Assembly (NCBI GenBank): GCA_903866605.1
Contig: CAIPOF010000001.1
Span: forward strand, 1 to 41,801
From: an uncultured bacterium
GTDB taxonomy: Bacteria > Patescibacteriota > Saccharimonadia > Saccharimonadales > Saccharimonadaceae
Direction of reading: 5' to 3'
Length of the DNA: 41,801 bases
Every line of letters starts with the position of its first letter. The stretch's first letter is position 1. Positions 1,888 through 41,801 of the stretch are shown here, in pieces. The notes under the pieces are model-generated. The model was given only the letters and a program-made list of their open reading frames with translations, did no database searches and had not been told where the DNA came from. The position numbers and the translations under genes are program-made.

Positions 1888-4800
1888 TTAGTTCTTTGGT
1901 TTATAGTTCTTCCAAATATCTTTAAAATATTCTGTCGACTGTTCTGTAATTAAATTATTGTCTTGGACATATTTATAATATGCCTGTCTCTTGTTCTCTG
2001 GCATATCATTTATAATATTATATAGAGTGAAGGCTTTAGTCATATCATTAATGCCTAAATCTTTGACCGCACTATTTATATCTGCAGCTTTTTCATCATC
2101 ATTCTCTCCGCTATACTTTGGGTTATTCATTGCATCACTAATAGCTTTTTTCACAGACGGACCAGCGTTCCTAGTTATAATATCAATTTGGGATGGTGTT
2201 AATGTAGACTTCCTCATTTCCGTACCAGAACCTATAGTTTGGTTTTTACTAACTAAGCCTAAAGATATTTTCGCTCCACTATCTTTTAGCCTTTGGAGTT
2301 CTCTTGTCCCTGGGCTTGAACGGTCATCAGACGGATAAGTCGGGTCAAGTAGAGCAGCCACCGTGCCAGTCGCTTTTGGTATAGGCTCACCAGTAAAATC
2401 AACTTTCTGTGGCAGATGATTTCTTAAACCTGGAATTTTACTTTTAATCTCATCTAAAACAGTATTTGTTTCTCTTTGCCAATGGTCTATACCGCTAGCG
2501 ATATTAGAAACTGCGACTGGGACCAATGAACCAGCATACTGTTTTAATAGTCCTTCCTGTTTCCCAGACGGGTCTTGTAAGGCGGCTATAATAGCGTTCA
2601 CATCTTGGACATATGGTGCGTTAGTAACACCTTGTTCGGCTGAGATACTGGCAGAACCTAGACCCTTTAGAATATTACCAGCGTTTTGTTTAGTCCCTTG
2701 CATACCACTGGCGAAGTTGGCCCCGATAAGCATAATATCACCAATGTAGCCGATAGAGTTTAACTGTCTCCAATGACCTCCGATTTTAATAGAGTTTTCT
2801 GTTCGACCTTCTTTGGCCCAAAGTGCTCGTTCTGTCGGGTCTGTCGGGTAACCTAAACTAATATTATTCTTCATAAACGCTTCATAGCCAAGAACTGCTA
2901 CACCAATTCCAGTTATACTTCTAGCCTCTTTCTGAGTGAAGTCTCTAGTATCAAAAGTACCAGTTCTAACTTTATCCATTGCTGATTCGAATATAGCTTT
3001 CGGTATACCTATCGGAGAGTAGTCAATAATCTTCATAGCAATAGATGATGGTATCTGAGAGAAAGGTATAGCGTACCCACCTGCGTTACCAGCTGGTTTA
3101 AAACCACGTTTAATACCAGATAGGATTTTAGATAAAACTGTCTGGTTCTGGAAAGTAGTATATCTTGCTTCGACATTAGCCCTCAGAGCCGCACCCTCTG
3201 GCGTGTTTCTACCATACTTAAATAAGTTCTCATCATCATCTGGGTGTTCGGCTGCGTACTTAGAAGCTTTACCGACAAAGTCAGTGATAAAGTTTTCTCT
3301 TTCAGCACCTTTTAAGCTTTGGTTTATGGCTTCAGTTGAAGCCATATCAAATAAGCTATTAAGATGTTGCGAGCCGAAGAATGGTTTGTATAGAGAACCG
3401 TGGAGTCTTTGGACACCTTTGGTATAAGCGTCGAATATCTTACCAGCGAAACTATCTCCGTAGTTAGTTCTATTCATAAAGTCCTGAGCATAACCGCCTG
3501 AGCCAGGGGCATTGTATCCGTGCAAAAAGTTATCAACAGCATCTCCGACACCCTTCATAGCACCGCCCCACATACCACGTAATGTAAAAGATATAGTTCT
3601 CTTTTTTTCTCCTATATTTAAAAAGTCTGGCATAACTTTGTTATAACCGACCCTAGTTATATCAAGTCCAGTGGCTACTACATCTTTAGTCTTTTCCATT
3701 ACGTTACTGGCAGTATGAGATACGATAATTTTTCCTGGAGTTCTAAGAGCGGTAAGTAATCCCGTTTTCCATACATCAAAAGCCCTGTCGCTGAAAGAGC
3801 TAGGGATTAATTTTGCGATATATTCTTTTAACTTATCTTGGGCTACGCTTTTATCACGTCCAGCGGCCATATTTTGTACTCTTTCAGCTTCTTCACTAAT
3901 ATATTTGGAATCAGATTCATTTAGATGTGGAATACGGAGTTTGGCTGCGGCTAAGTCTCTATAATCTTTATCGTTTAAAGCACCAGTGTTAACCAACTTA
4001 TATACTTTCTCCATAAATGTATCTTGAGTTTTACCTTTAGGGGCCTTAGAGGCGAGTTGTCTTAGCACTGAAGCCTTAGCCTCGTTCATCTGAGTTTTTA
4101 ACTCGTCAGCAGCTAATTTAGAGAAATGGTCAGCAGCCTCGGGAGTGAACCCTTCTTGAACCATTTTCTGGACAATATCAGAAGCAGCAGTCTTTTGCTC
4201 AGCAATACTGCGAGTCACAATGTCTCTAAGCTTCACTCCTTGGCTAGCGAGTTCCTGTTTCACAGCCTTAGTCACAGTGCTAGATGAGACGGGTGGATTA
4301 GCTTCGCTCTTTTCGTATTCTTCCAAGGCGTCTAGTATCTCAGGATTATCAGCAAACTTTTCTTGGACTACGCCTTTAGCCATCTCGTAAACACTTTTAG
4401 CGGTTTCATCTTTGCTGAACATATCTTTGATAAGTGATAGAGCTGATTTAGGAATAGATGTTACTTTCCCTTTTTCTGGTAAACTCTGCTTGGCAATCTT
4501 AAATAACTCATTTACTAAATCATTTACTTTGGCTTTCTTCTTGGCTGGCGACATCTCATTAATAACTTTAGAACCCAGTTTATTAGCGTCTTTAGCAGTT
4601 TGGTCAGCCTCACTCACAACCTTTTCTGAAGTTACCCTGGCACCGCCCTTAATCTTCTCCCCAGCTTTAGCAACAGCCTCAGCTATCTTATCAGTGACAT
4701 TTTTTACTACTTCACTTGGTTTAACTGTTGGTTTACCGTCAAGACTTATCTCGGTAGGCAGTGTCGGATGTTCGATAGAACCCTTAATATCTGAGACAAC

Positions 4801-6072
4801 TTTATCTATTTGGTCTGCCCTGGTATCCTGGGCTTTGTTAATTAGCTTTGTACTATATGCTAATATACCCTCAGGTGAGAGTGCGTTTAGAATAGTGGCG
4901 GCCTGTATAGCTCTACCATGCTCAGTTAGGTTTTGGGCTACCATATCAGCGACTTGGGCGGCACTATCAAATCGTTTGTTCTTTTGGAAAAAGTCTATTA
5001 AATGTATTCCAGTGGCTATGCCTTTATCATCTAACATACTTTTAAACCCACTCCAACCACTAGTTTTAGAGATTATACTATTAAATGCTTTCTCAGGGTC
5101 ATCATTTACAAACTTAGCAGCTTCATCAGAAAGCTTCTGAGTGTCTCGTGGCATATACTTAGAGTTAGGGTTCTGGTTAATAATATTTTTAAGTTCATCC
5201 TCAATATTTTGAGAGCTTTTTAGTGTGTCTACAAAACCTCTGTTTTTAAGTAATGGGTACTTAGCTAGTATATCAGCAACCTCTTTTGGTTTATTAGCAT
5301 ATTGGCTAAGAACCTTACTCATAATCGGTAAATCTTCTTGTTTGACTAACTTACCCATTTCGAGTAGCTTTGAAACATCTTCTAGTGATTTACTCTTAGA
5401 TATTTGATTGATTATAGTTTTGAGGCTAGACGCCTCTTCCTCAGGGTTTATCTTTCCCTCTGAACCAATAACAAATGGGAAAGCTAAATTAGCAGCGGCA
5501 CTAGCGATTGGATTTTTTATATTTAAGGCTTTACCTATATTAGAATTACCAGACTCAAAGTTCTTAACAGTTTGATTAAGTTGATTAACATTTGGATTAG
5601 TTATCTTCTCAGCAGAACCCATAGCCAAAGCAGAAGCAGCGTTGAAACCAACTCCAACTGGTGTTGCGTTAAAAGCTGCCTGAGCACCTCCCAATAAACT
5701 CTCTAGTTTACCAGTAGGTTTAGGAGGCAAGTCTCCGACAATACCACTTTGCTCATCTCCTTTTTTTGGCAGAAGAAACTTCCCAAGTGGGCTAGTAATA
5801 TTTTTGTTTATATACTTAGGGACAATATTGGCAGCGTTATAAGCAATGTTACCTGGTTTATTAAATGATGTATTTGTTTTATCAGCAAGACCCCTAGCTA
5901 TTTGGTTAGGTACTTCTTCTAGTCTCTGTAATGGTCCTGGATTATATTGGCTTATTGTTCCCCCTGGGACCATCTTCCCATTAACATTCACCATAGGAAA
6001 ACTAGGAGCAGCTGGTTTGGGCTTATTAGTTTTACCTCTAAGATTATTAAGCCAATCTTGGATAACTGACAT
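1888..6072 (-). CDS. Large (1394 aa) internal virion / polyvalent-type structural protein
   Basis: Long ORF at the end of the late operon; coiled-coil and Ala-rich segments; no family recognised with confidence. Confidence 0.65.
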   Translation of the reverse strand: MSVIQDWLNNLRGKTNKPKPAAPSFPMVNVNGKMVPGGTISQYNPGPLQRLEEVPNQIARGLADKTNTSFNKPGNIAYNAANIVPKYINKNITSPLGKFLLPKKGDEQSGIVGDLPPKPTGKLESLLGGAQAAFNATPVGVGFNAASALAMGSAEKITNPNVNQLNQTVKNFESGNSNIGKALNIKNPIASAAANLAFPFVIGSEGKINPEEEASSLKTIINQISKSKSLEDVSKLLEMGKLVKQEDLPIMSKVLSQYANKPKEVADILAKYPLLKNRGFVDTLKSSQNIEDELKNIINQNPNSKYMPRDTQKLSDEAAKFVNDDPEKAFNSIISKTSGWSGFKSMLDDKGIATGIHLIDFFQKNKRFDSAAQVADMVAQNLTEHGRAIQAATILNALSPEGILAYSTKLINKAQDTRADQIDKVVSDIKGSIEHPTLPTEISLDGKPTVKPSEVVKNVTDKIAEAVAKAGEKIKGGARVTSEKVVSEADQTAKDANKLGSKVINEMSPAKKKAKVNDLVNELFKIAKQSLPEKGKVTSIPKSALSLIKDMFSKDETAKSVYEMAKGVVQEKFADNPEILDALEEYEKSEANPPVSSSTVTKAVKQELASQGVKLRDIVTRSIAEQKTAASDIVQKMVQEGFTPEAADHFSKLAADELKTQMNEAKASVLRQLASKAPKGKTQDTFMEKVYKLVNTGALNDKDYRDLAAAKLRIPHLNESDSKYISEEAERVQNMAAGRDKSVAQDKLKEYIAKLIPSSFSDRAFDVWKTGLLTALRTPGKIIVSHTASNVMEKTKDVVATGLDITRVGYNKVMPDFLNIGEKKRTISFTLRGMWGGAMKGVGDAVDNFLHGYNAPGSGGYAQDFMNRTNYGDSFAGKIFDAYTKGVQRLHGSLYKPFFGSQHLNSLFDMASTEAINQSLKGAERENFITDFVGKASKYAAEHPDDDENLFKYGRNTPEGAALRANVEARYTTFQNQTVLSKILSGIKRGFKPAGNAGGYAIPFSQIPSSIAMKIIDYSPIGIPKAIFESAMDKVRTGTFDTRDFTQKEARSITGIGVAVLGYEAFMKNNISLGYPTDPTERALWAKEGRTENSIKIGGHWRQLNSIGYIGDIMLIGANFASGMQGTKQNAGNILKGLGSASISAEQGVTNAPYVQDVNAIIAALQDPSGKQEGLLKQYAGSLVPVAVSNIASGIDHWQRETNTVLDEIKSKIPGLRNHLPQKVDFTGEPIPKATGTVAALLDPTYPSDDRSSPGTRELQRLKDSGAKISLGLVSKNQTIGSGTEMRKSTLTPSQIDIITRNAGPSVKKAISDAMNNPKYSGENDDEKAADINSAVKDLGINDMTKAFTLYNIINDMPENKRQAYYKYVQDNNLITEQSTEYFKDIWKNYKPKN

Positions 6073-13681: not shown

Positions 13682-14695
13682 TTAAAATATTTGTAATGTA
13701 TTCTTTTTAGTTATCGGTGGTGGAGCAGCAACATAGCCTTGCAATTCTGCCAAAGTTCCGCCTATATTGTAGTCTTGGAAAACAACCCAAATATTGTTGT
13801 TGGCGTCACAAACCATTCCGATAGGTTCGTAATATGGTGAATTGAATGTTGTTCTTTGTACCATTCCAACCGTATTAAAACAATAAAATATTCCACTGCT
13901 TCCTGGTTCATCAAACCAAACATTTCCTGAATTATCAGTCGCTATATTATTAACTTCCCATGGATTGAATTGATGTGTTCCGACAATTGCGTGAGTCGTT
14001 GCGTTGATTTTATAAGCATAGCCGTTGCCGTTATCTCCAACCCAGGCAAATCCGTTTGAGTCGAAAGCAATACAACAAGGTGAAACGTAACCATAGGTCG
14101 CAGATGGAATGTTGATGGTGGCTAACACACTTCCTGTCGGGCTTATAACCATTACATTGCTATCTAGCCACATTCCCTGTCCACTATCCCAATTACTTGA
14201 ATTTGGCATAACTAACCAGAGATTTCCCGAAGCGTCAAAAGCCATATCTATAATATTGCAACCAGAGTTTCCTCCTGCTGGATAGAACTCAATATAAGTA
14301 AAGTTAGTCGAGTCGTCTACCTTCATACTTTGAACATAATTTCCAACAGTAACAAAAGCCCAATCTCCTGCGGCGCTAACAGCCATTACACCAGCTCCAG
14401 GACCTCCATAACGAGCGTTTAAAAGCGTACCACTCAGATTATATTTCTGAAACTGAGAACCGCCGATACCAATTGAAATATATACAAAGTCGTTTATCCT
14501 ATCGACTGCCAGTCCACCGACATAAGTATATCCAAGGTTGATATTGACAATGACCGCTCCGCTTGGCGTGACACATTCAAGATGTGGTGCGCTGTCTCTA
14601 TTTATAATCCAAAAGTTGCCAAGTCTGTCCATTCTAATAAGGTTTGGTTGATTTTCAGGAAGTGCAATTGTTTTTAATAAATCACCTAAAGCCAT
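13682..14695 (-). CDS. NHL/Vgb-like beta-propeller protein, probable receptor binding
   Basis: Repeated DxxGNxW(V/L) motifs. Confidence 0.65.
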   Translation of the reverse strand: MALGDLLKTIALPENQPNLIRMDRLGNFWIINRDSAPHLECVTPSGAVIVNINLGYTYVGGLAVDRINDFVYISIGIGGSQFQKYNLSGTLLNARYGGPGAGVMAVSAAGDWAFVTVGNYVQSMKVDDSTNFTYIEFYPAGGNSGCNIIDMAFDASGNLWLVMPNSSNWDSGQGMWLDSNVMVISPTGSVLATINIPSATYGYVSPCCIAFDSNGFAWVGDNGNGYAYKINATTHAIVGTHQFNPWEVNNIATDNSGNVWFDEPGSSGIFYCFNTVGMVQRTTFNSPYYEPIGMVCDANNNIWVVFQDYNIGGTLAELQGYVAAPPPITKKNTLQIF

Positions 14696-14703
14696 AATTT
14701 CCT

Positions 14704-17409
14704 TTATTTAATTAACAGTGTTACAGTCAAGTAATTTACAGTCGGTGTCGGACTAGCATTAACGGCTACTTGAATAACATCATTGTCGGCGAAGACTATG
14801 CTATTCCAGTTGGTAAAAGTCACATCTTTGAGGTATGAAGCACCCGAAAGAGCAGGATAAGAACCTGAACCAGAACCAGAAGGGTTGATTATCGAATAAG
14901 TATTTGAAGCAGGGACTGCAGCATTTCGGCGAAAAATATCAATCGCCACATTCCCTGTTACTCCATCAGGAGCAGTTAAGTAAACCCCGACCAAAGTTCC
15001 ACCCTTCGCCAAAGCGGGGGCAATATCAGCCAAACCAGCTACTAAGGCCGAACCACCGTTTTGAAAAGTAAATGTTACTTCTCTGATTAAGTTAGCGGCG
15101 ATTGCGTTATGTGTACCTAAGTCCATATCAGCTGTTGCGCCAGTGTAGGGTACTTTTAATGAAATACCTGGGTCTTCACCATACATATTCACACTGTCAA
15201 AACTCGGAGTTAATGCTCCTGTACCAGTCAAGACAATACAAAATTGAGCGTATCTTCCCAGTGACGGAGTAGCTGAAAAGTCTGATAAGTTTACACTTTT
15301 GTCAGTAGAAGTTTTAGCATTACGATATAAGACAGTGATCGCACAACCAGTCGGCAAGACTTGATTTAATACTTCGCAAACACCAACTTTATTATTTGCA
15401 CCCCAATCTTGTACTGGTGTATAAATGTAACCTGTTGTCTGATAGGTAAGAACAGGCGGAGTATTAGCAGGTGTAATACAGTTATCTGAAATACGAATCT
15501 CATCAACTGTACCGTCCCAATATCCTGCGGTGTTATCCGAACCTAAATAAATCGGGACATTGTTTAGAGTATCAATCGTATAAGCGAAAGCGGTACTGTT
15601 AATAAGCGAACCATTTAGGTAAAAATAGATGTTAGTATGGTCGCAAGTAATTGCAATTCTATATTTTGTGCCGTCAGCTAATAAGGTTATAGGGCTTGAG
15701 TTGACATTATGGGTCGCTCCACCCGAAGTAACTCCTAAGTTTATTCTGTAACTATTCGAACCTAAAGGAGATAACCAAAGAAGAAAGTGATGTAACCCAG
15801 TACCACCGTCATAACACCAGGGCGATCTTGTGCCACTTGTGAAAGCACTAGCCAGGGTAATAGCCATTTCGATAGAGAAAGTAGTGGTGATAGCTTTTAA
15901 AGCAGTATCTAATATCGTGCCAGTAGTTTTACCATAGGAAGAAAATTCAGTCTTGGCCGCAGTAAATTGAGCGCCGTTGGTGGCATTAATGCCAGTAATT
16001 TGACCTCCTAAGTTATAACCATTTCCTGAAATATCTCTAGTATCACCTGTTAAGGACGGATACCATAAAGCCTTAGTATGAGTGCTACCATTTGCTAATT
16101 TATAAACTGGCGCCGCTGACGGAATGTCAGAAACTACATTAACTGTTGAAGAACCATTTAAAGTTTTATCCCAAATGAACGGAACCATTACAAAGTTATC
16201 AACTCCAGCCCTAACTGAACCAATTAAAACTACATCGTTACCAGTTATGGTCGAGGTAGCTACATTTCGAGTAATATCATCGGTGATAATACGAGGAGTA
16301 TCACAACCGCTTGAATCAACCAACATACCTGATAAGTATTTGTCGTTAGTATTAGTTTTAAATAGTTTTCCGATATATGTTCGATTAGCTTTAGTCATTA
16401 CGACATTATCAGACACAAAGACATCATAACTCGGTAAAGTATTTACTCCTGAGTAATGAGGTACAATATGAACAAATCTTGAGGAGCCATCTTCTCTTGG
16501 CCAATAAACAATATCTCCACAGAAAAAGCCCTGCTTAAGGTCAGTAGTTCCAGCATAATTTTTATCTGGACCTTGAGTCGATGAATCTACATTCACAACA
16601 CCACTAAATAAAGCTGAACCACTATATCCAACTTTTGTTGGGTCAGTTGAAGTACGGCCATACTTAACCCAAGTAACTAAATCTTTTGAACTAGCAACAC
16701 CTGTTAATCTTTGAGCGACATAAATAGTATCATAGTAAATATAATAAGTATCTCCGACTTTGATAACACCACCAAAGTCGATAGAACCTTGGTCCCACGC
16801 TCCCACTACACCCGAAGTAATTACAGGAGTAGTTAAGACATTACCTTGAGTATCTTTACGCTCCCAAACTGGTGCGCCACTTAAATTTTGAACAGCAGTA
16901 GCTAAGAAAATTTGAGAAGTTCCACCAGATGTAGGAGAACCACGATAAATCATTCTCCAAGGTCTTCCAGCTACCTCAGAAGCTTCATACCAAACAAAAG
17001 GCACATCTAGTTTAGCATCTAAAGAACCACCTGGGCCAAGAGCCAAATCAACATTAAAAAATGACTTAGGACTTGGGGTTACAGAATTGCTAGTCATTAC
17101 TCTAACTGAGTCGACACCATCACCAAAAAACATTCTAAAAACAGAATTGTCAGCGTCCCAGACTACATTACCGAATTGCGCGCCTTGATACTTTCCTGCA
17201 TTATATCCATTTTGGTTTAGGTTATAAGGGTCAAATCTAAAGTTCAGAAGTTGACTGTCAACAGGGTTGGCTACAACTTGACCAAGAGGAGTATTTAAAA
17301 TATCCGAAACAGACTCAATAACATTAACTCCACCCTGTAAGGCTACAATTAAATCTGAATCAATTGGTGTTACTTGTGTTAGGTCTGAAAATTTTTCTGG
17401 TGTTGGCAT
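14704..17409 (-). CDS. Tail spike with GH43/32-like propeller and LamG-like domain
   Basis: YYIYYDTI...ASSKDLVTWVKYGR propeller motif; FSIEMAITL...YRIAITCDHTNIYFYLNGSLINSTAF LamG motif. Confidence 0.7.
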   Translation of the reverse strand: MPTPEKFSDLTQVTPIDSDLIVALQGGVNVIESVSDILNTPLGQVVANPVDSQLLNFRFDPYNLNQNGYNAGKYQGAQFGNVVWDADNSVFRMFFGDGVDSVRVMTSNSVTPSPKSFFNVDLALGPGGSLDAKLDVPFVWYEASEVAGRPWRMIYRGSPTSGGTSQIFLATAVQNLSGAPVWERKDTQGNVLTTPVITSGVVGAWDQGSIDFGGVIKVGDTYYIYYDTIYVAQRLTGVASSKDLVTWVKYGRTSTDPTKVGYSGSALFSGVVNVDSSTQGPDKNYAGTTDLKQGFFCGDIVYWPREDGSSRFVHIVPHYSGVNTLPSYDVFVSDNVVMTKANRTYIGKLFKTNTNDKYLSGMLVDSSGCDTPRIITDDITRNVATSTITGNDVVLIGSVRAGVDNFVMVPFIWDKTLNGSSTVNVVSDIPSAAPVYKLANGSTHTKALWYPSLTGDTRDISGNGYNLGGQITGINATNGAQFTAAKTEFSSYGKTTGTILDTALKAITTTFSIEMAITLASAFTSGTRSPWCYDGGTGLHHFLLWLSPLGSNSYRINLGVTSGGATHNVNSSPITLLADGTKYRIAITCDHTNIYFYLNGSLINSTAFAYTIDTLNNVPIYLGSDNTAGYWDGTVDEIRISDNCITPANTPPVLTYQTTGYIYTPVQDWGANNKVGVCEVLNQVLPTGCAITVLYRNAKTSTDKSVNLSDFSATPSLGRYAQFCIVLTGTGALTPSFDSVNMYGEDPGISLKVPYTGATADMDLGTHNAIAANLIREVTFTFQNGGSALVAGLADIAPALAKGGTLVGVYLTAPDGVTGNVAIDIFRRNAAVPASNTYSIINPSGSGSGSYPALSGASYLKDVTFTNWNSIVFADNDVIQVAVNASPTPTVNYLTVTLLIK

Positions 17410-20237: not shown

Positions 20238-20402
20238 TTATTTGAACTTAGGAACTTTAGCGTTTTTGTATTTAGCCATCTTAACGTTGATAGCTTTTGG
20301 TACTTTAACTTTGACATTTGTTGTTTTAACGATTGGAGCCTTAATTGATGAAACAACTTTTGGTTTTGCCACAGTAGGTTTGGAAACTTTTATTTTAGCC
20401 AT
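20238..20402 (-). CDS. 54-aa Lys-rich polycationic peptide MAKIKVSKPTVAKPKVV...KVPKFK
   Basis: Manual translation: 16 Lys, no acidic residues; overlaps the ATP-grasp gene end. Confidence 0.6.
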   Translation of the reverse strand: MAKIKVSKPTVAKPKVVSSIKAPIVKTTNVKVKVPKAINVKMAKYKNAKVPKFK

Positions 20403-21759
20403 TTTTGACCTTTCTAGGTTCTATTACTAATATATCCTGCGATTGTAAATCCACAATCATCTTCTCTACACCTTCTCCAATGGTCTCTGAGTAGAACAAA
20501 TCTGGGATTACTAGGTTGTTCTTTTTCGGGTCGATGATTGAATAAGCACCTGCGACTGCTTCTGCCACACTATCAGCACAGTAAGTTACACACCCTACCA
20601 TATTGGCAGTTACTTCGTGGCCAGCATCAGTTCTTTTAATTGAATACCACCAGAAGTTATCTTTGTACTTATCATCCCAGAACACTGGTTTTCCTTCTAC
20701 ATCTTCACAGTGTTCTCCGATAGAACCACTGTATAGTCTAACTGTGCAACTATATCTTCCGTATGGGAAATAATCCTTAGGGAACGGTTTACCAAAAGCA
20801 ATCATTTCAAAGTATTCACCAATCTTATGACCAGCATCTTTTAATAATGCCAGCTCACCAAGAGTAGAATCCCAACCGAAACGGCTTGTGAACTCTAAAA
20901 AGTACGGGTCTCCATTGCTGACTATATTATTGATAGCCCATTCATTCGGTGTTGCGTTTACTTTTCTTAACTCTGGGACTAGTTTGGCAAGATATTTCTT
21001 GAAGTATGGTTGTTTAGTTGGGTCTAACATAACTTCTATCTGACCTAGACACCCAACAGCTTTGCCAAGACCGTGGATACGTTTTTGTTCGAAGTCTACA
21101 AACATAGATGGGGCAAATTGTTTCCCATTCCACCATCCAGCAAAGTCTACTTCTATACCATCAATAATCTTTTGGAATCTAAACTTCTCCATCTTGCAAC
21201 CATATAGTTGTTGTTTATCAACCCATTCAATATACTTTATCATCTCATCTACAGTATTAGCCAAGTATGTGAATGAACTACCAGCGGCGTCGGCCCCGTC
21301 ACCTTTAAACACTAATTTAACATCATTGTTCTTGGCTTTTAGTTTCTCTAGATACATAGTAGCTTTAGAGAAATCTGTGAACTCTATCGCTGGTGGGATA
21401 TTAAGTCCAAGTTTTGACGCTAAGTCATTACCAGAACCACGGTCGTGCTCGATATGTTCGCTATAAGAACTTGAACCTATAACGTGCCAACCCTCGCTTC
21501 TAAGATAATCGAACTCATCACCATCGTAGTTCCCATCAACTAAGATAATAAGTTCATCTTTCTTATCTTTGAACTCACAAAGAGTATCGTACATATCGTC
21601 GACTACTGTAATCATATTTTTTCCGACATCTTTGCCAGAGTATTTCTCAGCAGACTTCTCGTAGAAAGAATATGTTTTATATCCTTCTTCCTCAAGTCTT
21701 TGAGCAACACCCAGGAAACAACCATCAGTATTATCCAATAAGAAACTTATCTTACTCAT
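20395..21759 (-). CDS. PurD-like ATP-grasp ligase
   Basis: GSSSYSEHIEHDRGSGNDLASKLGLNIPPAIEF, KLVFKGDGADAAGSS, FLEFTSRFGWDSTLGELALL resemble GARS/ATP-grasp motifs. Confidence 0.7.
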   Translation of the reverse strand: MSKISFLLDNTDGCFLGVAQRLEEEGYKTYSFYEKSAEKYSGKDVGKNMITVVDDMYDTLCEFKDKKDELIILVDGNYDGDEFDYLRSEGWHVIGSSSYSEHIEHDRGSGNDLASKLGLNIPPAIEFTDFSKATMYLEKLKAKNNDVKLVFKGDGADAAGSSFTYLANTVDEMIKYIEWVDKQQLYGCKMEKFRFQKIIDGIEVDFAGWWNGKQFAPSMFVDFEQKRIHGLGKAVGCLGQIEVMLDPTKQPYFKKYLAKLVPELRKVNATPNEWAINNIVSNGDPYFLEFTSRFGWDSTLGELALLKDAGHKIGEYFEMIAFGKPFPKDYFPYGRYSCTVRLYSGSIGEHCEDVEGKPVFWDDKYKDNFWWYSIKRTDAGHEVTANMVGCVTYCADSVAEAVAGAYSIIDPKKNNLVIPDLFYSETIGEGVEKMIVDLQSQDILVIEPRKVKNG

Positions 21760-22157
21760 TTTATTCTCCTTAGTGTCTCATAATCTACAATCCCTGAAGT
21801 ATTTTTTATGTCTTTATCTTTTACATCAAAAGAACTTTTTACAAAGTCATATACTTTTTTATAACTATATGGTTTGCAACTGAACACTTCGAAACATAAT
21901 GTATTTTCTTCTGGCCAGGTATGAATAATAATATCTGAAAAGTCTATGATTACAGTACCAGTTATGCCTGGGAACTCTGGGTTACCATACTTTATTCTGG
22001 GTCCGTCTAGTATATTCATATCAACAAGTTTAACCACATCTAATAAGAATTTTTTAATGAAACCTTTGTCGTTGAGAACTGAACAACATCTAAAAATTCC
22101 GCAGGTTTCTTTTATTACATTTTTGCAATCATATATTGCATGGTATCTTTTATTCAT
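21756..22157 (-). CDS. S-adenosylmethionine decarboxylase-like (SpeD/AdoMetDC family)
   Basis: FSDIIIHTWPEENTLCFEVFSCKP versus family ESHISIHTWPE...DVFTCG; pyruvoyl Ser, His and Cys positions kept. Confidence 0.75.
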   Translation of the reverse strand: MNKRYHAIYDCKNVIKETCGIFRCCSVLNDKGFIKKFLLDVVKLVDMNILDGPRIKYGNPEFPGITGTVIIDFSDIIIHTWPEENTLCFEVFSCKPYSYKKVYDFVKSSFDVKDKDIKNTSGIVDYETLRRIK

Positions 22158-22518
22158 GGAATAGTTCTCCTACTGTACCATCGTAGTCTTGCCATTTAAT
22201 CCCAAGTTCGCTACACATCAAACGCTCTATACCCGTGGCGAAGTTATGTTCTTTCTGGTATGGGGCCTCTGGGTCATCTCCTGGTTCGCCCTTGCCATCA
22301 AACTTAATATCAAAATCAGTTATAGACTGTTCGTTGATACCACGTTTTTTAACCAGCCAATATTCTACCATCTCGTGAAGACCAACTAAGAAAGCATAGT
22401 CATCATTTCCCATATCAGATACAACAATCTTTATACGACCTTCACTGTCCGTCCAATAATCTCCGCACGTTTCATAACGCTGTTTATCATGAGGTATGGT
22501 TCTAATATTTATCTTCAT
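22150..22518 (-). CDS. Metal-dependent peptidase-like phage protein (HEMVE)
   Basis: GLHEMVEYWLVKKRGI...GDDPEAPYQKEHNFATGIER. Confidence 0.55.
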   Translation of the reverse strand: MKINIRTIPHDKQRYETCGDYWTDSEGRIKIVVSDMGNDDYAFLVGLHEMVEYWLVKKRGINEQSITDFDIKFDGKGEPGDDPEAPYQKEHNFATGIERLMCSELGIKWQDYDGTVGELFHE

Positions 22519-23732
22519 CTCTTAAATATCTCCTTCCATTTTAAACCAATCTTTTCCCAGCTAAGTTCATTTACTACCCAGCTGTGGGCACGACCAACAG
22601 TCTTATTTATCATACTTGGGTTGTCTTTTACAAACTGAATCTTTTTAACAAACTCATTTACATCTGCGGTTGGTCTGACCCTGTTATGGTCTTCTAGACC
22701 GAAGCAAGAGTGCCCAGCAGTACTAACTAAAATACCACGTCCATTATTGTCGCAAATCTCTCTGAACGAAGTATGGTTCGGTACCACTACTGGAGTCTTA
22801 GTAGCCATTGCTTCAGTTATAGATAAACCCCAACCTTCACCAGTGCTGGTAGAAATAACTACGTCACTAACATTATAAATCATATTTATCATCTCAACCG
22901 AGAATCCCTTGTTCTCATCATAGTTGTCAGGATTACCATCTGGGCCAGTTGGGACTAGGAAGTCAGCACCGTACTCAAGTCCAAACTGTTTAGCTACATC
23001 AATAACATTACAGAATGGCCCATTGTTTTTTAGATGCAGATATAGAAAGCTGTCAGGATTAAGAATCTTAAACTTACTAAATATCTCTAGAGTTCTAGGT
23101 ATATCTTTTCTTAACCAGTTAGTATTAACATTAGTTATTAAGAATTTACCATCAGCAAGTCCGTGAAAGAAATCGTGTCTAAAACTTTTCTTAGTCTTAA
23201 CATCAACTGGGTAAAACTCTTTTAAATTAGTACCGTGATATACTACATCTAACTTTAATTTAGGATTTACCTTATTAATTTCTTTAGACGCATAATTAGT
23301 ATAGGTAACAGGTATCTCTATGTTATTAACTACCTTAGTAGTCCACTCATCTGGTTGCCATCCATCTACTGGAAAATAATGAATGTACTTAAATACTTTC
23401 ATATCTCTTTTCTTGAGTTCTTCTTGCATTTTCTTAATCACATCACCTATTTGAATGAAATGGAAAGTGTCTTGAATCACGAAGAAAATATCGTATTTTC
23501 CATCCATCAACATATCGAGTGCTCGTTCACGACCATATCTGTCATCAAATCTATATGGGACCATCGCTGGGTAAATCTTATAAGGAAACTCGTGTGGGTC
23601 ACCAAAATAGTTAATGGCCACAACATCAAACTCGTACTCACCAGTTTTGTTTAATTGCTCTAGGATATTCCTAGATACATTAGCGAAACCAGTAGTGCAA
23701 ACGAAATCAGATAATACTAAAACTTTTTTCAT
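22515..23732 (-). CDS. Glycosyltransferase (GT-B, GT4-like)
   Basis: STGEGWGLSITEAMATKTPVVVPNHTSFREI motif. Confidence 0.85.
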   Translation of the reverse strand: MKKVLVLSDFVCTTGFANVSRNILEQLNKTGEYEFDVVAINYFGDPHEFPYKIYPAMVPYRFDDRYGRERALDMLMDGKYDIFFVIQDTFHFIQIGDVIKKMQEELKKRDMKVFKYIHYFPVDGWQPDEWTTKVVNNIEIPVTYTNYASKEINKVNPKLKLDVVYHGTNLKEFYPVDVKTKKSFRHDFFHGLADGKFLITNVNTNWLRKDIPRTLEIFSKFKILNPDSFLYLHLKNNGPFCNVIDVAKQFGLEYGADFLVPTGPDGNPDNYDENKGFSVEMINMIYNVSDVVISTSTGEGWGLSITEAMATKTPVVVPNHTSFREICDNNGRGILVSTAGHSCFGLEDHNRVRPTADVNEFVKKIQFVKDNPSMINKTVGRAHSWVVNELSWEKIGLKWKEIFKR

Positions 23733-24169
23733 ATCTTCCTCAAAATAAATCTTACATTCTCGCCTTCTGCTTCGGCATATACCTTCTCAAACTTACATTT
23801 GGAATACTCGTATTTATCGTGCCAGAATGTTCCAGGTACAAAATAATCCATGCTATCTTTGTGGAATGATTTAAAGTGTGACGGGTCCCGTGATAGACTA
23901 TCATTCAATCCGCAAGTTCTAATCTCAACAGTTCCACCTGGTTTCAATAGTCTCCAGCATTCTTCTACGAACTCAATATATATTCGTGAACGAATTGGTG
24001 CAATGTGTTCGATAATATCGTGTGCTATTATCTCATCATAGTCTGTACCTAAGTCCCAAGGCATATCTGATAAGTCACAAACAATATCTACTCCAGGGAA
24101 ATCAATTATATCTACATTCGTAGCACCAGGTAATATATCTTTTCCACAACCAAGATTCAATATTCTCAT
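23729..24169 (-). CDS. SAM-dependent methyltransferase
   Basis: MRILNLGCGKDILPGATNVDII...AHDIIEHI...LLKPGGTVEI. Confidence 0.85.
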   Translation of the reverse strand: MRILNLGCGKDILPGATNVDIIDFPGVDIVCDLSDMPWDLGTDYDEIIAHDIIEHIAPIRSRIYIEFVEECWRLLKPGGTVEIRTCGLNDSLSRDPSHFKSFHKDSMDYFVPGTFWHDKYEYSKCKFEKVYAEAEGENVRFILRKI

Positions 24170-29997: not shown

Positions 29998-30026
29998 TTG
30001 ACAAGCCGCTTGTGATAGTGTATTAT
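29998..30026 (+). promoter_or_regulatory. Sigma70-like promoter TTGACA-N17-TATTAT
   Basis: Exact -35, 17-nt spacer. Confidence 0.7.
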
Positions 30027-31232: not shown

Positions 31233-31400
31233 GTGGAGTATAAACCAGAATATTATCAAGAATATAGAAAAAAGAATAAAAAAAAGTTACACGACTATTA
31301 TTTAGAATATTATGATAAAAATAGAGAGGAGGTTTTAGAAAAAAAGAATAAAAGACGAACCATTAAAAAAGAAGAAAAAGAAGAGTTTGGTTTAAATTAA
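31233..31400 (+). CDS. 55-aa Lys/Tyr-rich protein, GTG start
   Basis: Manual translation MEYKPEYYQEYRKKNKKKLHDYYLEYYDKNREEVLEKKNKRRTIKKEEKEEFGLN; agaggtaaaa SD. Confidence 0.5.
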   Translation: MEYKPEYYQEYRKKNKKKLHDYYLEYYDKNREEVLEKKNKRRTIKKEEKEEFGLN

Positions 31401-31414
31401 AAAGGAGTAAAACT

Positions 31415-31567
31415 ATGGCAAATGACGACTTATTTAATGCCGATATGGCAACCACCACAAAAAAGGTCGAGGAGTGGCGTAAAGAGGTAAAAATTAAAGA
31501 TTTAAAGGAGGTAAAAAAAGACGATTATGATGTTAATGCCGATATATTTAATACAATGTATCTATAA
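31415..31567 (+). CDS. 50-aa protein with repeated FNAD/NADIFN motif
   Basis: Manual translation MANDDLFNADMATTTKKVEEWRKEVKIKDLKEVKKDDYDVNADIFNTMYL; aaaggag SD. Confidence 0.5.
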   Translation: MANDDLFNADMATTTKKVEEWRKEVKIKDLKEVKKDDYDVNADIFNTMYL

Positions 31568-31595: not shown

Positions 31596-31787
31596 ATGAC
31601 TAACAAAGACTACGATTTAATCGCTTTAACAATAAAAAAGGCGATTGGTGGCTACCTAGACAATAACAGCAATATCGAGCAATATGCGATAGCCAGAAGA
31701 ATTATAGACGAATTATGCGAAGAATTCGAGCTTGAGGACAGCACATTTAGAAAACAGAATTTTGTTTTAACTTGCGGATTAAATTAA
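31596..31787 (+). CDS. Hypothetical protein
   Basis: ORF track; aaaggaggtaacg SD. Confidence 0.55.
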   Translation: MTNKDYDLIALTIKKAIGGYLDNNSNIEQYAIARRIIDELCEEFELEDSTFRKQNFVLTCGLN

Positions 31788-31819: not shown

Positions 31820-33331
31820 ATGATTATGATTGGTTCAGACCCCGAATTTACAATTAAAAAAGGAAACTCGTTTATTAGTGCCTATGATATTATCAAAGGC
31901 GGTACAAGTGCCAAGTTTGGTACAGACGGAAACAGTAGTACAGGCGAAATTAGACCAGAAGCCAGTGATAGTCCCGAAGGTCATTTTAAGAATATCGAAA
32001 GTTTACTCAAAGAAAATTTAAGTAAAATGTCAGATATTTATAAAATTGATTTAACTAACGATTATCAAACTATTGGTGGTCATTTACATATATCAGGAGT
32101 TGACCAAGCGAAAATTAGAAAGCTAGTCAAAAACCTTGATAATTTTCTTGGCTTACCATTTATGCTTATCGAGCCAAAAGAAGTGTTTAATCGCCATTTA
32201 GGCGGTGGCTATGGCGTACTAGGCGACTACCGAACGGAGGGTTGTAGTAATGGTACAAAGGTCGAATATCGAACCTTGCCGAGTTGGCTTAGCGACCCGA
32301 AACTAACCAAAATGACCTTAGCGGTGGCGTACGTGATAGCAGACGAGACACAAAACGGAAAATTGGATAGCGATTTACTGCCCACATTTTTCCAAAGTAC
32401 AGCTATTTTAGAAACCTTAGAACAGCCAAATGCTTGGATTAATATGGAAAATATCTGTAAACAGACCGAGCAATTAAAAACTTTTAAACTATACCCGAAG
32501 TACAAAGAAGATATTGATATGTTTGTGGATATGGTTAAAAATCATCAAAAGTTTGATTTAGACTTTCAGAAGAATTGGAAAATCCAAATGCTTAAAACAG
32601 TCCAATTGAATGAAGAATATTACAAAAAGGTTATGGCTAAAAAGTTTTTTATAGGTAAAACAGACACTTTCTTAGATAATAGATTTATTAGTATCACAGG
32701 TGATTTGAATTTAGCCAGAATTAGTAATTGTATTGGTAAAATATTAGACCAAGTGGAAAATAATCTAAGCAGATATCAATTATGCGGTTTAGCCGAAGCC
32801 AGAGGTCAAAAATGGCTTACAAACAATTATGAGGTAACTTATAAACTACACCAGTTAGGTGTACCGGTCAGAATTACACCTCTTGAAAATAACTATGTTA
32901 GTCAGGTTGATAATAGTAGTTTTAGAGATAATTATAGAGGTGGTGGCGGTAGTTACAAAATTTGGATACCGTTCAAAGACCGAGCCGAAGAAAATCTAGC
33001 CAGTACAGCCAAGATACTTTTTAATCTGATTTATAAATTAGAGACCGAGCCAAGGGTTAGTTATTCAAATTGCCAAGAAGTATTTGACAAACTATTATTC
33101 TCTGATTTACAAGATAAAAACAATGTTGAAACCAGAGCCGAGATAGTCCAAAATTATCAAGCCAAATCAAACGGATATACAGATTATCTGGTGGCGGGTT
33201 TAGACAATATTTACAGAAGTGCCTTAAGTGGTACAAGGTATACTCAAGACGAATTAAGATATATGGCGGAGTCTATGCCTGAGTATTTTGAAAATATGTT
33301 TCCGAATATCGACCCGAATATAATAAATTAA
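31820..33331 (+). CDS. COOH-NH2 amidoligase (phiEco32-like type 2 family)
   Basis: IGSDPEFTI...FGTDGNSSTGEIRPEAS...GGHLHISG...KVEYRTLPSWL motif set. Confidence 0.85.
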   Translation: MIMIGSDPEFTIKKGNSFISAYDIIKGGTSAKFGTDGNSSTGEIRPEASDSPEGHFKNIESLLKENLSKMSDIYKIDLTNDYQTIGGHLHISGVDQAKIRKLVKNLDNFLGLPFMLIEPKEVFNRHLGGGYGVLGDYRTEGCSNGTKVEYRTLPSWLSDPKLTKMTLAVAYVIADETQNGKLDSDLLPTFFQSTAILETLEQPNAWINMENICKQTEQLKTFKLYPKYKEDIDMFVDMVKNHQKFDLDFQKNWKIQMLKTVQLNEEYYKKVMAKKFFIGKTDTFLDNRFISITGDLNLARISNCIGKILDQVENNLSRYQLCGLAEARGQKWLTNNYEVTYKLHQLGVPVRITPLENNYVSQVDNSSFRDNYRGGGGSYKIWIPFKDRAEENLASTAKILFNLIYKLETEPRVSYSNCQEVFDKLLFSDLQDKNNVETRAEIVQNYQAKSNGYTDYLVAGLDNIYRSALSGTRYTQDELRYMAESMPEYFENMFPNIDPNIIN

Positions 33332-33360
33332 AATAATATAACTAGAAAAAGAGGTAAAAT

Positions 33361-34485
33361 ATGTGTGGTATTTGCGGTGGTATGAAAGTACCGAAAGAAT
33401 TTATTAAAAATTTAATGTTAGAAAGTGAGGATAGGGGTAAAGATGCCACTGGTATTGCTTACTTTAATCAAGACAAGGTTAAAGTATTTAAACAGGCGAT
33501 ACCCTCAAGCGAGTTTGTGGAGACACCAGAGTTTAATAGTTTCTTGGAGGGCGAAAACACAGGATTGTTTATAGGGCATACGAGACAAAAAACTCAGGGA
33601 GACGCTTCAAACAATAACAATAACCACCCTTTGTATGATGAGGGTGTGGCGGTCATACACAATGGCGTAATTTCAAATGACAAGGAGTTGATAACCAGAT
33701 TTAAACTTAAAACCAAAGCGGAAGTGGATAGCGAGGTCATACTCCGTATGTATCTGTTATTCAAGAAAAAACTCAAACCAGAAGAAGCCTTTAATAAAGT
33801 TATGGAGAAACTCAGGTCGGGTGCGGTGGCAATTATTGACCGAGACTTGCCGAATAAGATTATGGTCGGTGCGACTAGCTCTAGTTTGATATTCGCTTAC
33901 ATACCCAAGACCGACAGTATCGTGTTTGCCAGTTCGGAAAGTATCATTAAAGATAGTCTAGTTACAAAAACCATTGTCAAAAACTGGTTTGTGTTAGCCA
34001 CGACAGCCGAATTGTATTATACGCAAGACCCGAAAGTTGACCGAACCTTTACCATAGATGAAAATGGTATAACAGAATTTAAAGTAACTACCGAACCATA
34101 TTATTACAATGACGACAAAGAAGATTATGACGACTATGGCGGTTATGGTAGTTGGCACAAAAACCAAGTAGCCGAGACCGACAAAGAGACCAAGCTACTG
34201 ACAGGCGATACTAACGAAACGGAAACTTCTCTTGAGCGAGACGAAAAATTAGACAAAGCCGAAGCCGAAGCAGACGACAAAGTGGACCAACAAATCCAAG
34301 ATTGGACAGACGAATTAGAATATGAGTGGTCGCAAGTATCGCCAGAAATTAGACGACAGTTAAATATAGATTTGAACTGGGATTGTCGTGAGCAAAAGAA
34401 AGCCGACCCGAATTTCCAATACCCAAATAAAACCGAGCGAGAAGAAATTTTAAAGGAGATGTTTTATGACCAATACTTATCTTAA
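33361..34485 (+). CDS. Class-II glutamine amidotransferase (Ntn hydrolase)
   Basis: MCGICGG with Cys2; GHTRQKTQGDASNNNNNHPL...VAVIHNGVISN. Confidence 0.9.
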   Translation: MCGICGGMKVPKEFIKNLMLESEDRGKDATGIAYFNQDKVKVFKQAIPSSEFVETPEFNSFLEGENTGLFIGHTRQKTQGDASNNNNNHPLYDEGVAVIHNGVISNDKELITRFKLKTKAEVDSEVILRMYLLFKKKLKPEEAFNKVMEKLRSGAVAIIDRDLPNKIMVGATSSSLIFAYIPKTDSIVFASSESIIKDSLVTKTIVKNWFVLATTAELYYTQDPKVDRTFTIDENGITEFKVTTEPYYYNDDKEDYDDYGGYGSWHKNQVAETDKETKLLTGDTNETETSLERDEKLDKAEAEADDKVDQQIQDWTDELEYEWSQVSPEIRRQLNIDLNWDCREQKKADPNFQYPNKTEREEILKEMFYDQYLS

Positions 34486-34921
34486 TTTACACAAACCAGA
34501 AGCAATTAGACTATTAAGGGAGTTAATCAAAGCTAAGAAGTTTTTTAGGCAGACCGAAGCCGACAAGAAAGTTTTACTAGCCGAGACCCTGATACACTTA
34601 AATAGAATTTATGGTATTGAAACAGGCTTGAGCTTTCAAAGACAGTTTTTCGACTTCAGTGGTTACGGTAGTTATAGTATAAACGATAGAGTTATACACT
34701 TGCCAAGAGTCAGTCTAGTAACTTTCTTACACGAATTTAGCCACGCCCTGTTTAATCAGAAAAATCGCAAAAATACCGAGCCACAAGCCAGAAGTTGGAG
34801 TTTAGAGCTATTTAAGAAAGCCAGTCCCAAAAGTTATGACAGGGCAGTCGAAAAAGGTATATTGTTATATACCCTAGAAAGCGAGACCGACAATGCCAAT
34901 GTATCGAGCGAGAACAAGTGA
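34466..34921 (+). CDS. Zincin-like metallopeptidase (HEFSH)
   Basis: VSLVTFLHEFSHALFN; overlaps the GAT gene. Confidence 0.7.
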   Translation: MTNTYLNLHKPEAIRLLRELIKAKKFFRQTEADKKVLLAETLIHLNRIYGIETGLSFQRQFFDFSGYGSYSINDRVIHLPRVSLVTFLHEFSHALFNQKNRKNTEPQARSWSLELFKKASPKSYDRAVEKGILLYTLESETDNANVSSENK

Positions 34922-35444
34922 GACACACTGGGAAACCTTTGAATTTGAAGCAGATAGCGAAGAAGAAGCAGAAGAAATGTTAAATGACGGAAATTGTGGC
35001 GATAGTATAGCTTCAGATTATGAGGACTGGGAGGTTGATAGTTTAGAGGAGATTAGCGGAGAAGAAAACACCAGAAACACGCCACAACCACAGACAAGCG
35101 ACCGACTATATCCGAGAATTGTTAATGATAATCTTAGACCCCGAAACAGCCACAGTGTATATGACGGTCAGCCAGAGGTGTCACTTATAGACGAAATGGT
35201 CGAAGATAGGGGACGAGCGATTAGACAAGAGGAAATGCTAAATATGAGGAAGATGACCCAAATCACTAAAAACCTCGGTGGGCGTGAGCCGATACAAGAC
35301 GAATTTACTCATTTGCCAGTCTCACGCCAGCGTAAGTGGGCTTTACGCCACAGAGACAAGCAAAACGCCTTTCAAAGAAAATATGACAGGCGAAGAAGAT
35401 TAAAATTAAAACTAGAAAAAGAGCAAAATCTTATTGACTCTTGA
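34893..35444 (+). CDS. Hypothetical protein, acidic N-term / basic C-term
   Basis: ORF track; overlaps the zincin gene. Confidence 0.55.
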   Translation: MPMYRARTSETHWETFEFEADSEEEAEEMLNDGNCGDSIASDYEDWEVDSLEEISGEENTRNTPQPQTSDRLYPRIVNDNLRPRNSHSVYDGQPEVSLIDEMVEDRGRAIRQEEMLNMRKMTQITKNLGGREPIQDEFTHLPVSRQRKWALRHRDKQNAFQRKYDRRRRLKLKLEKEQNLIDS

Positions 35445-35514: not shown

Positions 35515-35558
35515 AACGAAAAAATACACTTTGCGTTACCAAAGTGTATTTTTTCGTT
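35515..35558. terminator. Bidirectional intrinsic terminator, 19-bp perfect stem
   Basis: AACGAAAAAATACACTTTG cgttac CAAAGTGTATTTTTTCGTT. Confidence 0.85.
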
Positions 35559-36039: not shown

Positions 36040-36068
36040 TTGACAATCCGACTGTCAAAGCCTATAAT
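36040..36068 (+). promoter_or_regulatory. Perfect consensus promoter TTGACA-N17-TATAAT
   Basis: Exact consensus; TTGACA-N7-TGTCAA inverted repeat overlaps the -35. Confidence 0.85.
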
Positions 36069-41660: not shown

Positions 41661-41801
41661 ATGGATGATAATACTGGTTGCTGGATAATTGTTTTATTAG
41701 TAGTAGTAGCAATTTTAATAAAATGGATAATTTAGAAACACTATGTCTTAGATGTCACGGTTTAATACACGGTAATAAGTTAGTTTAACAATCAATAAGT
41801 A
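41661..41801. repeat. Direct terminal repeat, copy 2 (circular-contig overlap)
   Basis: Exact 141-bp identity with 1-141. Confidence 0.98.

Follow-up and report, generated by a model that had tools for sequence, protein, structure and literature searches.

What might a phage do with an amidoligase, a glutamine amidotransferase and a small metallopeptidase encoded by three adjacent genes? The pair of ligase and class-II glutamine amidotransferase (GAT-II) is already known as such, and the zincin is the new part. Iyer et al. 2009 reportedly predicted this pair by computational means, and it is present in LUZ24-, PaP3- and CW02-like phages.

The window, i.e. the whole 41,801-nt stretch that was analysed, is a complete phage genome. 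Nucleotides 1-141 are identical to 41661-41801, which gives a circle of 41,660 bp. The minus strand carries the late genes (terminase, portal, major capsid protein, and endolysin), and the plus strand the early or accessory region. The original prediction placed three adjacent genes at 31820-34921, and the open reading frames are confirmed as head to tail on the plus strand, in the order ligase, GAT, and zincin. There is an overlap of 20 nt between the GAT and zincin genes and one of 29 nt between the zincin gene and the next ORF (34893-35444), and AGGT-type intergenic ribosome-binding sites precede the triad ORFs. The triad and its neighbours probably form one transcription unit, which would run from the promoter-like site at 29998-30026 to the hairpin at 35515-35558 (Table 1). 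The ORFs at 31233-31400 and 31596-31787 have a common Gly-Leu-Asn end that is not repeated near other triads, and this may be due to chance in AT-rich DNA. No recurrent small substrate peptide is found near triads. A defence-system reading is rejected, as PADLOC gives no convincing match.

Table 1. Features of the predicted triad unit and its surroundings (positions in the window)
Feature	Position	Strand	Remarks
Sigma-70-like promoter candidate, TTGACA-17-TATTAT	29998..30026	+	Upstream of operon; consensus match only
55-aa ORF	31233-31400		In operon; C-terminal Gly-Leu-Asn
50-aa ORF	31415..31567	+	Putative peptide substrate; no homologue in related loci
63-aa ORF	31596..31787	+	Immediately 5' of ligase; C-terminal Gly-Leu-Asn
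COOH-NH2 ligase, PF14395, 503 aa	31820..33331	+	Profile and fold match
Ligase C-terminal extension, residues 256-503	32585..33331	+	Matches no family; low model confidence
Stand-alone class-II glutamine amidotransferase, Ntn hydrolase, Cys2, 374 aa	33361..34485	+	Profile and residues
Zincin, HEFSH x11 E, 151 aa	34466..34921	+	Family without Pfam/PHROG model
183-aa ORF	34893..35444	+	Final gene of unit; similarity of N-terminal ~45 aa to small PHROGs (E about 4e-3)
19-bp hairpin	35515..35558		Likely terminator of triad unit
Promoter candidate, perfect consensus	36040..36068	+	Next unit; consensus match only

The first gene was proposed to encode a COOH-NH2 ligase, and the profile search agrees. 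Over residues 4-255, the protein aligns with the whole of PF14395 (positions 1-254 of 254; E-value 2.9e-31), and its score of 109 bits compares with a cut-off of 25. The catalytic domain is mostly modelled by AF2 with pLDDT 80-98. This model matches glutamine synthetase (2e-5), the YbdK-type ligase 1tt4 (3e-5), gamma-glutamylcysteine synthetase (GCS, 1e-3), and the depupylase Dop (8e-3) in the PDB, and the predicted fold is thus of the glutamine-synthetase (GS)/GCS/Dop type. Ten columns, namely G5, D7, P8, E9, E43, H88, H90, Y131, E149, and R151, are invariant in all 27 ligase sequences. Seven of them (D7, E9, E43, H88, H90, E149, and R151) would comprise the Mg/ATP-binding set by analogy with GCS, and none of these putative active-site residues is lost. 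ATP-dependent amide formation is predicted for the ligase from its family. The C-terminal ~250 residues have a poor AF2 model and no family. However, they contain the motif G-L-x-E-x-R-G (ligase residues 323-329), which is common, with variations, to the long ligases of the loci L016, L040, L042, L017, and L043. A single-sequence IMG/VR scan and a tblastn search against phage isolates found no relatives of the ligase, which are detectable only with alignments as the query. The 751-aa ligase of L016 has a long Cys-rich C-terminal tail (3100-3760) that looks zinc-binding.

The second gene product was described as an Ntn-type GAT with Cys2. It matches PF13522 (5e-13) and the N-domain of GlmS (2e-23; PDB 1xff), and the glutamine-site residues C2, R75, T78, N101, G102, and D123 are all present, in line with that description. 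Glutaminase activity is expected for such a protein. The C-terminal tail is acidic and without family. An identity with GlmS itself is rejected, since the 374-aa protein matches the N-domain only and has no SIS synthase domains. The GAT matches in records named as Staphylococcus/Listeria/Enterococcus phage, and in one faecal record, are also discarded, as they are ~600-aa GlmS-like proteins. In the GAT tree, the window GAT is nearest to those of L040 and L016, a grouping without strong support; these two GATs are likewise located behind a long PF14395 ligase. The GATs from the main lineage that combines PF12224 with the zincin, of which eight are included in the tree, form a separate 100/100 clade.

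The third gene product, read as an HEFSH metallopeptidase, has H89, E90, H93, and E105, and its AF2 model is a confident one (pLDDT 85.5). The model comprises an HExxH helix and a downstream Glu in a zincin fold, as in a gluzincin. There is no passing match to the zincin in Pfam, PHROG, or NCBIfam. Neither IrrE/ImmA (PF06114) nor another Pfam/PHROG zincin family is above the cut-off, the best being DUF3920 with an E-value of 3e-3 in two of the 21 family members. A relative is found in Geobacillus phage GR1 (35% over 133 aa, 3e-21), together with about 20 further relatives in metagenomes. The metal-site residues H89-E90-x-x-H93 and E105 are kept in 19 of the 21 members in the alignment. In BFVD, the top match of the model (4.7e-7) is to a phage protein that is uncharacterised, and the following ones include several IrrE- or SprT-like proteins; the matches in the PDB are weak, with PprI/IrrE first. 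The modelled zincin resembles cytosolic gluzincins of the IrrE/SprT-like type and not wall hydrolases, and it therefore gives no support for an action on assembled peptidoglycan. The libraries and papers searched appear to contain no description of the family or of its partnership with amidoligases, although Iyer 2009 may mention it. In L060, the zincin homologue (5449-5973) keeps the first ligand but has neither the HExxH nor the third one (HAFTA, Lys), within an amidoligase-GAT operon that looks intact; this may point to decay or a non-catalytic role. The zincin of L061 is disrupted, and that of L054 is present in two tandem paralogous copies (3034-4035).

The original prediction treats the zincin as a genuine partner of the ligase and GAT, and its genomic distribution bears this out. 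A scan of IMG/VR with the zincin alone as query gives 16 contigs, and the PF12224 amidoligase (Pfam) is present in 15 of them, compared to one of 50 contigs drawn with a random 14-mer (Fisher p 9e-13; 1.7e-6 with five lineages each counted once). In the sixteenth, L056, a custom amidoligase model matches weakly, without confirmation by Pfam. The gene adjoining the zincin in most of the 16 contigs is an amidoligase, a GAT-II, or the gamma-glutamyl-amine cyclotransferase GGACT. An Amidoligase_2-type gene and/or GAT-II adjoins the zincin in L047, L049, L050/51, L052, L056-L061, and L065, and an amidoligase only in L062 and L064, while GGACT is directly beside it in L053 and nearby in L063 and L064. 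Eleven contigs (ten distinct) contain the zincin, amidoligase, and GAT-II in one cluster and in several gene orders; nine or ten of the triad loci represent a single phage lineage. Zincin matches in bacterial bins come from four Planctomycetota MAGs and one Ignavibacteriales MAG, with an amidoligase beside the zincin in three of the five.

The association is found repeatedly, in several phage lineages and with both classes of ligase, and the window is the only member found where this zincin family meets a PF14395 ligase. The slot after the PF14395 ligase and GAT is taken in L017 and L043 by another small zincin (HEAAH), whose homology to the window zincin is rejected (hhalign probability 1.2%). 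Since the same zincin occurs with both ligase classes and an unrelated zincin fills its slot in L017 and L043, the zincin is a recurrent third component that was assembled more than once. Either partner can be replaced, the ligase by class and the zincin by type, which argues for a shared function over a frozen neighbourhood. The zincin is nevertheless optional, as none is near the pair in PaP3, CW02, L016, L040, and L042.

The window system shares features with several known ones. Operons of the phiEco32/LUZ24/PaP3/CW02 type comprise PF14395, GAT-II, PF12224, a RimK-like ATP-grasp, and GGCT, and they resemble the window in having a PF14395 ligase near or next to a stand-alone GAT-II in the early or accessory region. 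In contrast, the window lacks PF12224 and GGCT and its operon lacks the ATP-grasp, its ligase has 503 aa rather than about 270, and it has a zincin, with the order ligase-GAT-zincin. In LUZ24/PaP3/CW02-like phages, the ligase and GAT-II pair is found in other gene orders. The PF12224 Amidoligase_2 cassettes (L047, L049, L050, L052, L057-L061, and L065, with a weaker amidoligase match in L056) have the same zincin family as the window and likewise carry the three functions in adjacent, often overlapping genes, but their amidoligase is of the other class and the GATs of their main lineage fall in the separate clade. The adjacency of ligase and GAT expected from a conserved neighbourhood is found in L016, L040, L042, L017, and L043, which have the order of the window and the GLxExRG-like extension; four of them have long C-terminally extended ligases. 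They differ from the window in the third gene, as L016, L040, and L042 have no zincin beside the pair and L017 and L043 have the unrelated HEAAH zincin. In L044, PF14395 ligases and GAT-II genes, two of each, are present in one phage region (3-6954), with a 574-aa ORF (1021-2745) in between. The Pup ligase PafA and the depupylase Dop are similar in having a GS fold and modifying proteins, and Dop is among the fold matches of the window ligase. However, they use no GAT-II or zincin, and the surroundings of the triads contain no conserved Pup-like peptide.

The phage genome is a closed circle, yet the contig is binned with a bacterium. The bin contigs have small-genome, CPR-like features, and no 16S match is found in the bin. 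The tetranucleotide profile compares at 0.28-0.55 between the phage and the bin contigs and at 0.68-0.83 among the bin contigs. As the profile of the phage is unlike that of the bin, the bin may not be the phage host. PF14395 is absent from the relatives of the bin (150 family genomes and 379 phylum genomes). A profile search for PF12224 and PF06094 (GGCT/GGACT) gives no match in the phage or its bin; the PF12224 search matched other records. On the minus strand, a metabolic cluster at 20395-24169 sits between the portal and capsid genes. It comprises a methyltransferase-like ORF, a GT4 glycosyltransferase (phrog_2170, 3e-47), a 122-aa ORF with an HEMVE motif, a SpeD/AdoMetDC homologue (TIGR03330, 7.5e-13), and a PurD-like ATP-grasp (TIGR00877, 4e-10). 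The pyruvoyl Ser and HTWPE are conserved in the SpeD homologue (21756-22157, minus strand), which nevertheless has DF-S-D in place of the canonical AE-S-H and may therefore not be an AdoMet decarboxylase. Ornithine/arginine decarboxylase activity is reported for phage SpeD homologues (PMC10407285). The late region (minus strand, 13682-17409) also encodes beta-propeller-like and Laminin_G/ConA-like proteins, which are possible receptor-binding or carbohydrate-binding virion proteins.

For the triad, the reading preferred here is a cytosolic module for glutamine-dependent amidation, in which the zincin processes a peptide or protein partner; its probability is judged to be about even. The GAT-II would hydrolyse glutamine and pass the ammonia, or less likely another amine, to the GS-fold ligase, which would activate a carboxylate as the acyl phosphate, using ATP, and convert it to an amide. 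The zincin would be a small site-specific gluzincin that makes a single cut in the peptide or protein partner; the cut could come first and uncover the acceptor, or follow the modification. As for the substrate, the carboxylate of a peptide or protein has a slight edge over a wall precursor or a small metabolite, since a peptidase and, in relatives, GGACT recur as partners. GGACT acts on gamma-glutamyl amines and, as it is found close to the zincin in relatives, suggests gamma-glutamyl-amine or isopeptide chemistry. A bolder form of the idea is a phage protein-tagging or amidation system, in which the GAT-II-fed ligase would modify carboxylates of host or phage proteins, the gluzincin would cut the modified or tagged protein, and, in relatives, GGACT would clear the gamma-glutamyl amines; this is quite unlikely.

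Other readings place the same genes in the cell wall, in small-molecule metabolism, or only side by side. MurT-GatD and LtsA/AsnB amidate D-iGlu or mDAP, and the ligase and GAT could similarly amidate such a carboxylate of a cytosolic peptidoglycan precursor, with the zincin as accessory peptidase. The outcome would be altered cross-linking or endolysin sensitivity, leading to the exclusion of other phages. Glutamine-dependent wall amidation does exist, and MurT-GatD resembles the proposed window pair as a two-component system for carboxylate amidation (PMC3267633, PMC5871853), but MurT belongs to the Mur ligases and GatD to the class-I GATs, and the window pair is homologous to neither. The bin holding the phage encodes Mur ligases, and wall modification is proposed for the phiEco32 amidoligase in the literature (cited in PMC10580990 and PMC11318856). 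Superinfection exclusion is a suggestion of one computational paper, Iyer 2009, which PMC10580990, PMC11318856, and PMC11253131 all repeat. No experiment on phage amidoligase/GAT-II function or superinfection exclusion is found in the literature searched, the zincin is IrrE/SprT-like and of no known wall-hydrolase type, the GGACT of relatives is directed to gamma-glutamyl amines and not wall peptides, and the bin with the Mur ligases may not be the phage host. Wall modification is hence considered unlikely. An equally low probability is given to a role in making and breaking gamma-glutamyl compounds (gamma-Glu-amines, glutathione- or polyamine-like), which would serve auxiliary nitrogen metabolism or provide DNA or virion modification with counter-ions or donors. 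The YbdK/GCS-like relatives of the GS fold are consistent with it, as are GGACT/GGCT and glutathione-synthase-like ATP-grasps in relatives and the SpeD homologue and PurD-like ATP-grasp of the phage, and a similar gene set in phage ZRK32 is taken as nitrogen-metabolism genes (PMC10945688). This reading leaves the recurrent peptidase partner unexplained, and both PF12224 and GGACT are absent from the phage and bin. None of 26 other amidoligase phage records contains SpeD, and a SpeD/polyamine link to the triad is therefore rejected.

The zincin could also be a neighbour by operon packing, such as an anti-host or regulatory protease, with no part in the ligase-GAT reaction. Unrelated small genes are common in early-region phage operons, and many ligase-GAT phages have no zincin. 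The zincin is at least about 10 kb from the amidoligase in L046, L048, L054/55, and GR1, the only named isolate with the zincin, whose amidoligase-GGCT pair is 11 kb away; in L066, there is no amidoligase within 6 kb. Against these stand the enrichment in zincin contigs over random ones, the adjacency in several gene orders, and the unrelated zincin that L017 and L043 have in its place, which make mere packing very improbable.

Amidoligase/GAT-II operons are widespread among phages, and a recurrent peptidase partner narrows their substrate towards peptides or proteins and offers a third handle for knock-outs. The zincin of the window defines an apparently undescribed zincin family of 21 members, and the window itself represents a minimal three-gene version that can be expressed and assayed whole. 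The occurrence of two non-orthologous ligases and two unrelated zincins in the same context is a convergent association, which usually indicates a shared pathway. If the protein-tagging idea were true, a writer-processor pair would have been assembled independently at least two times, from non-orthologous ligases and zincins.
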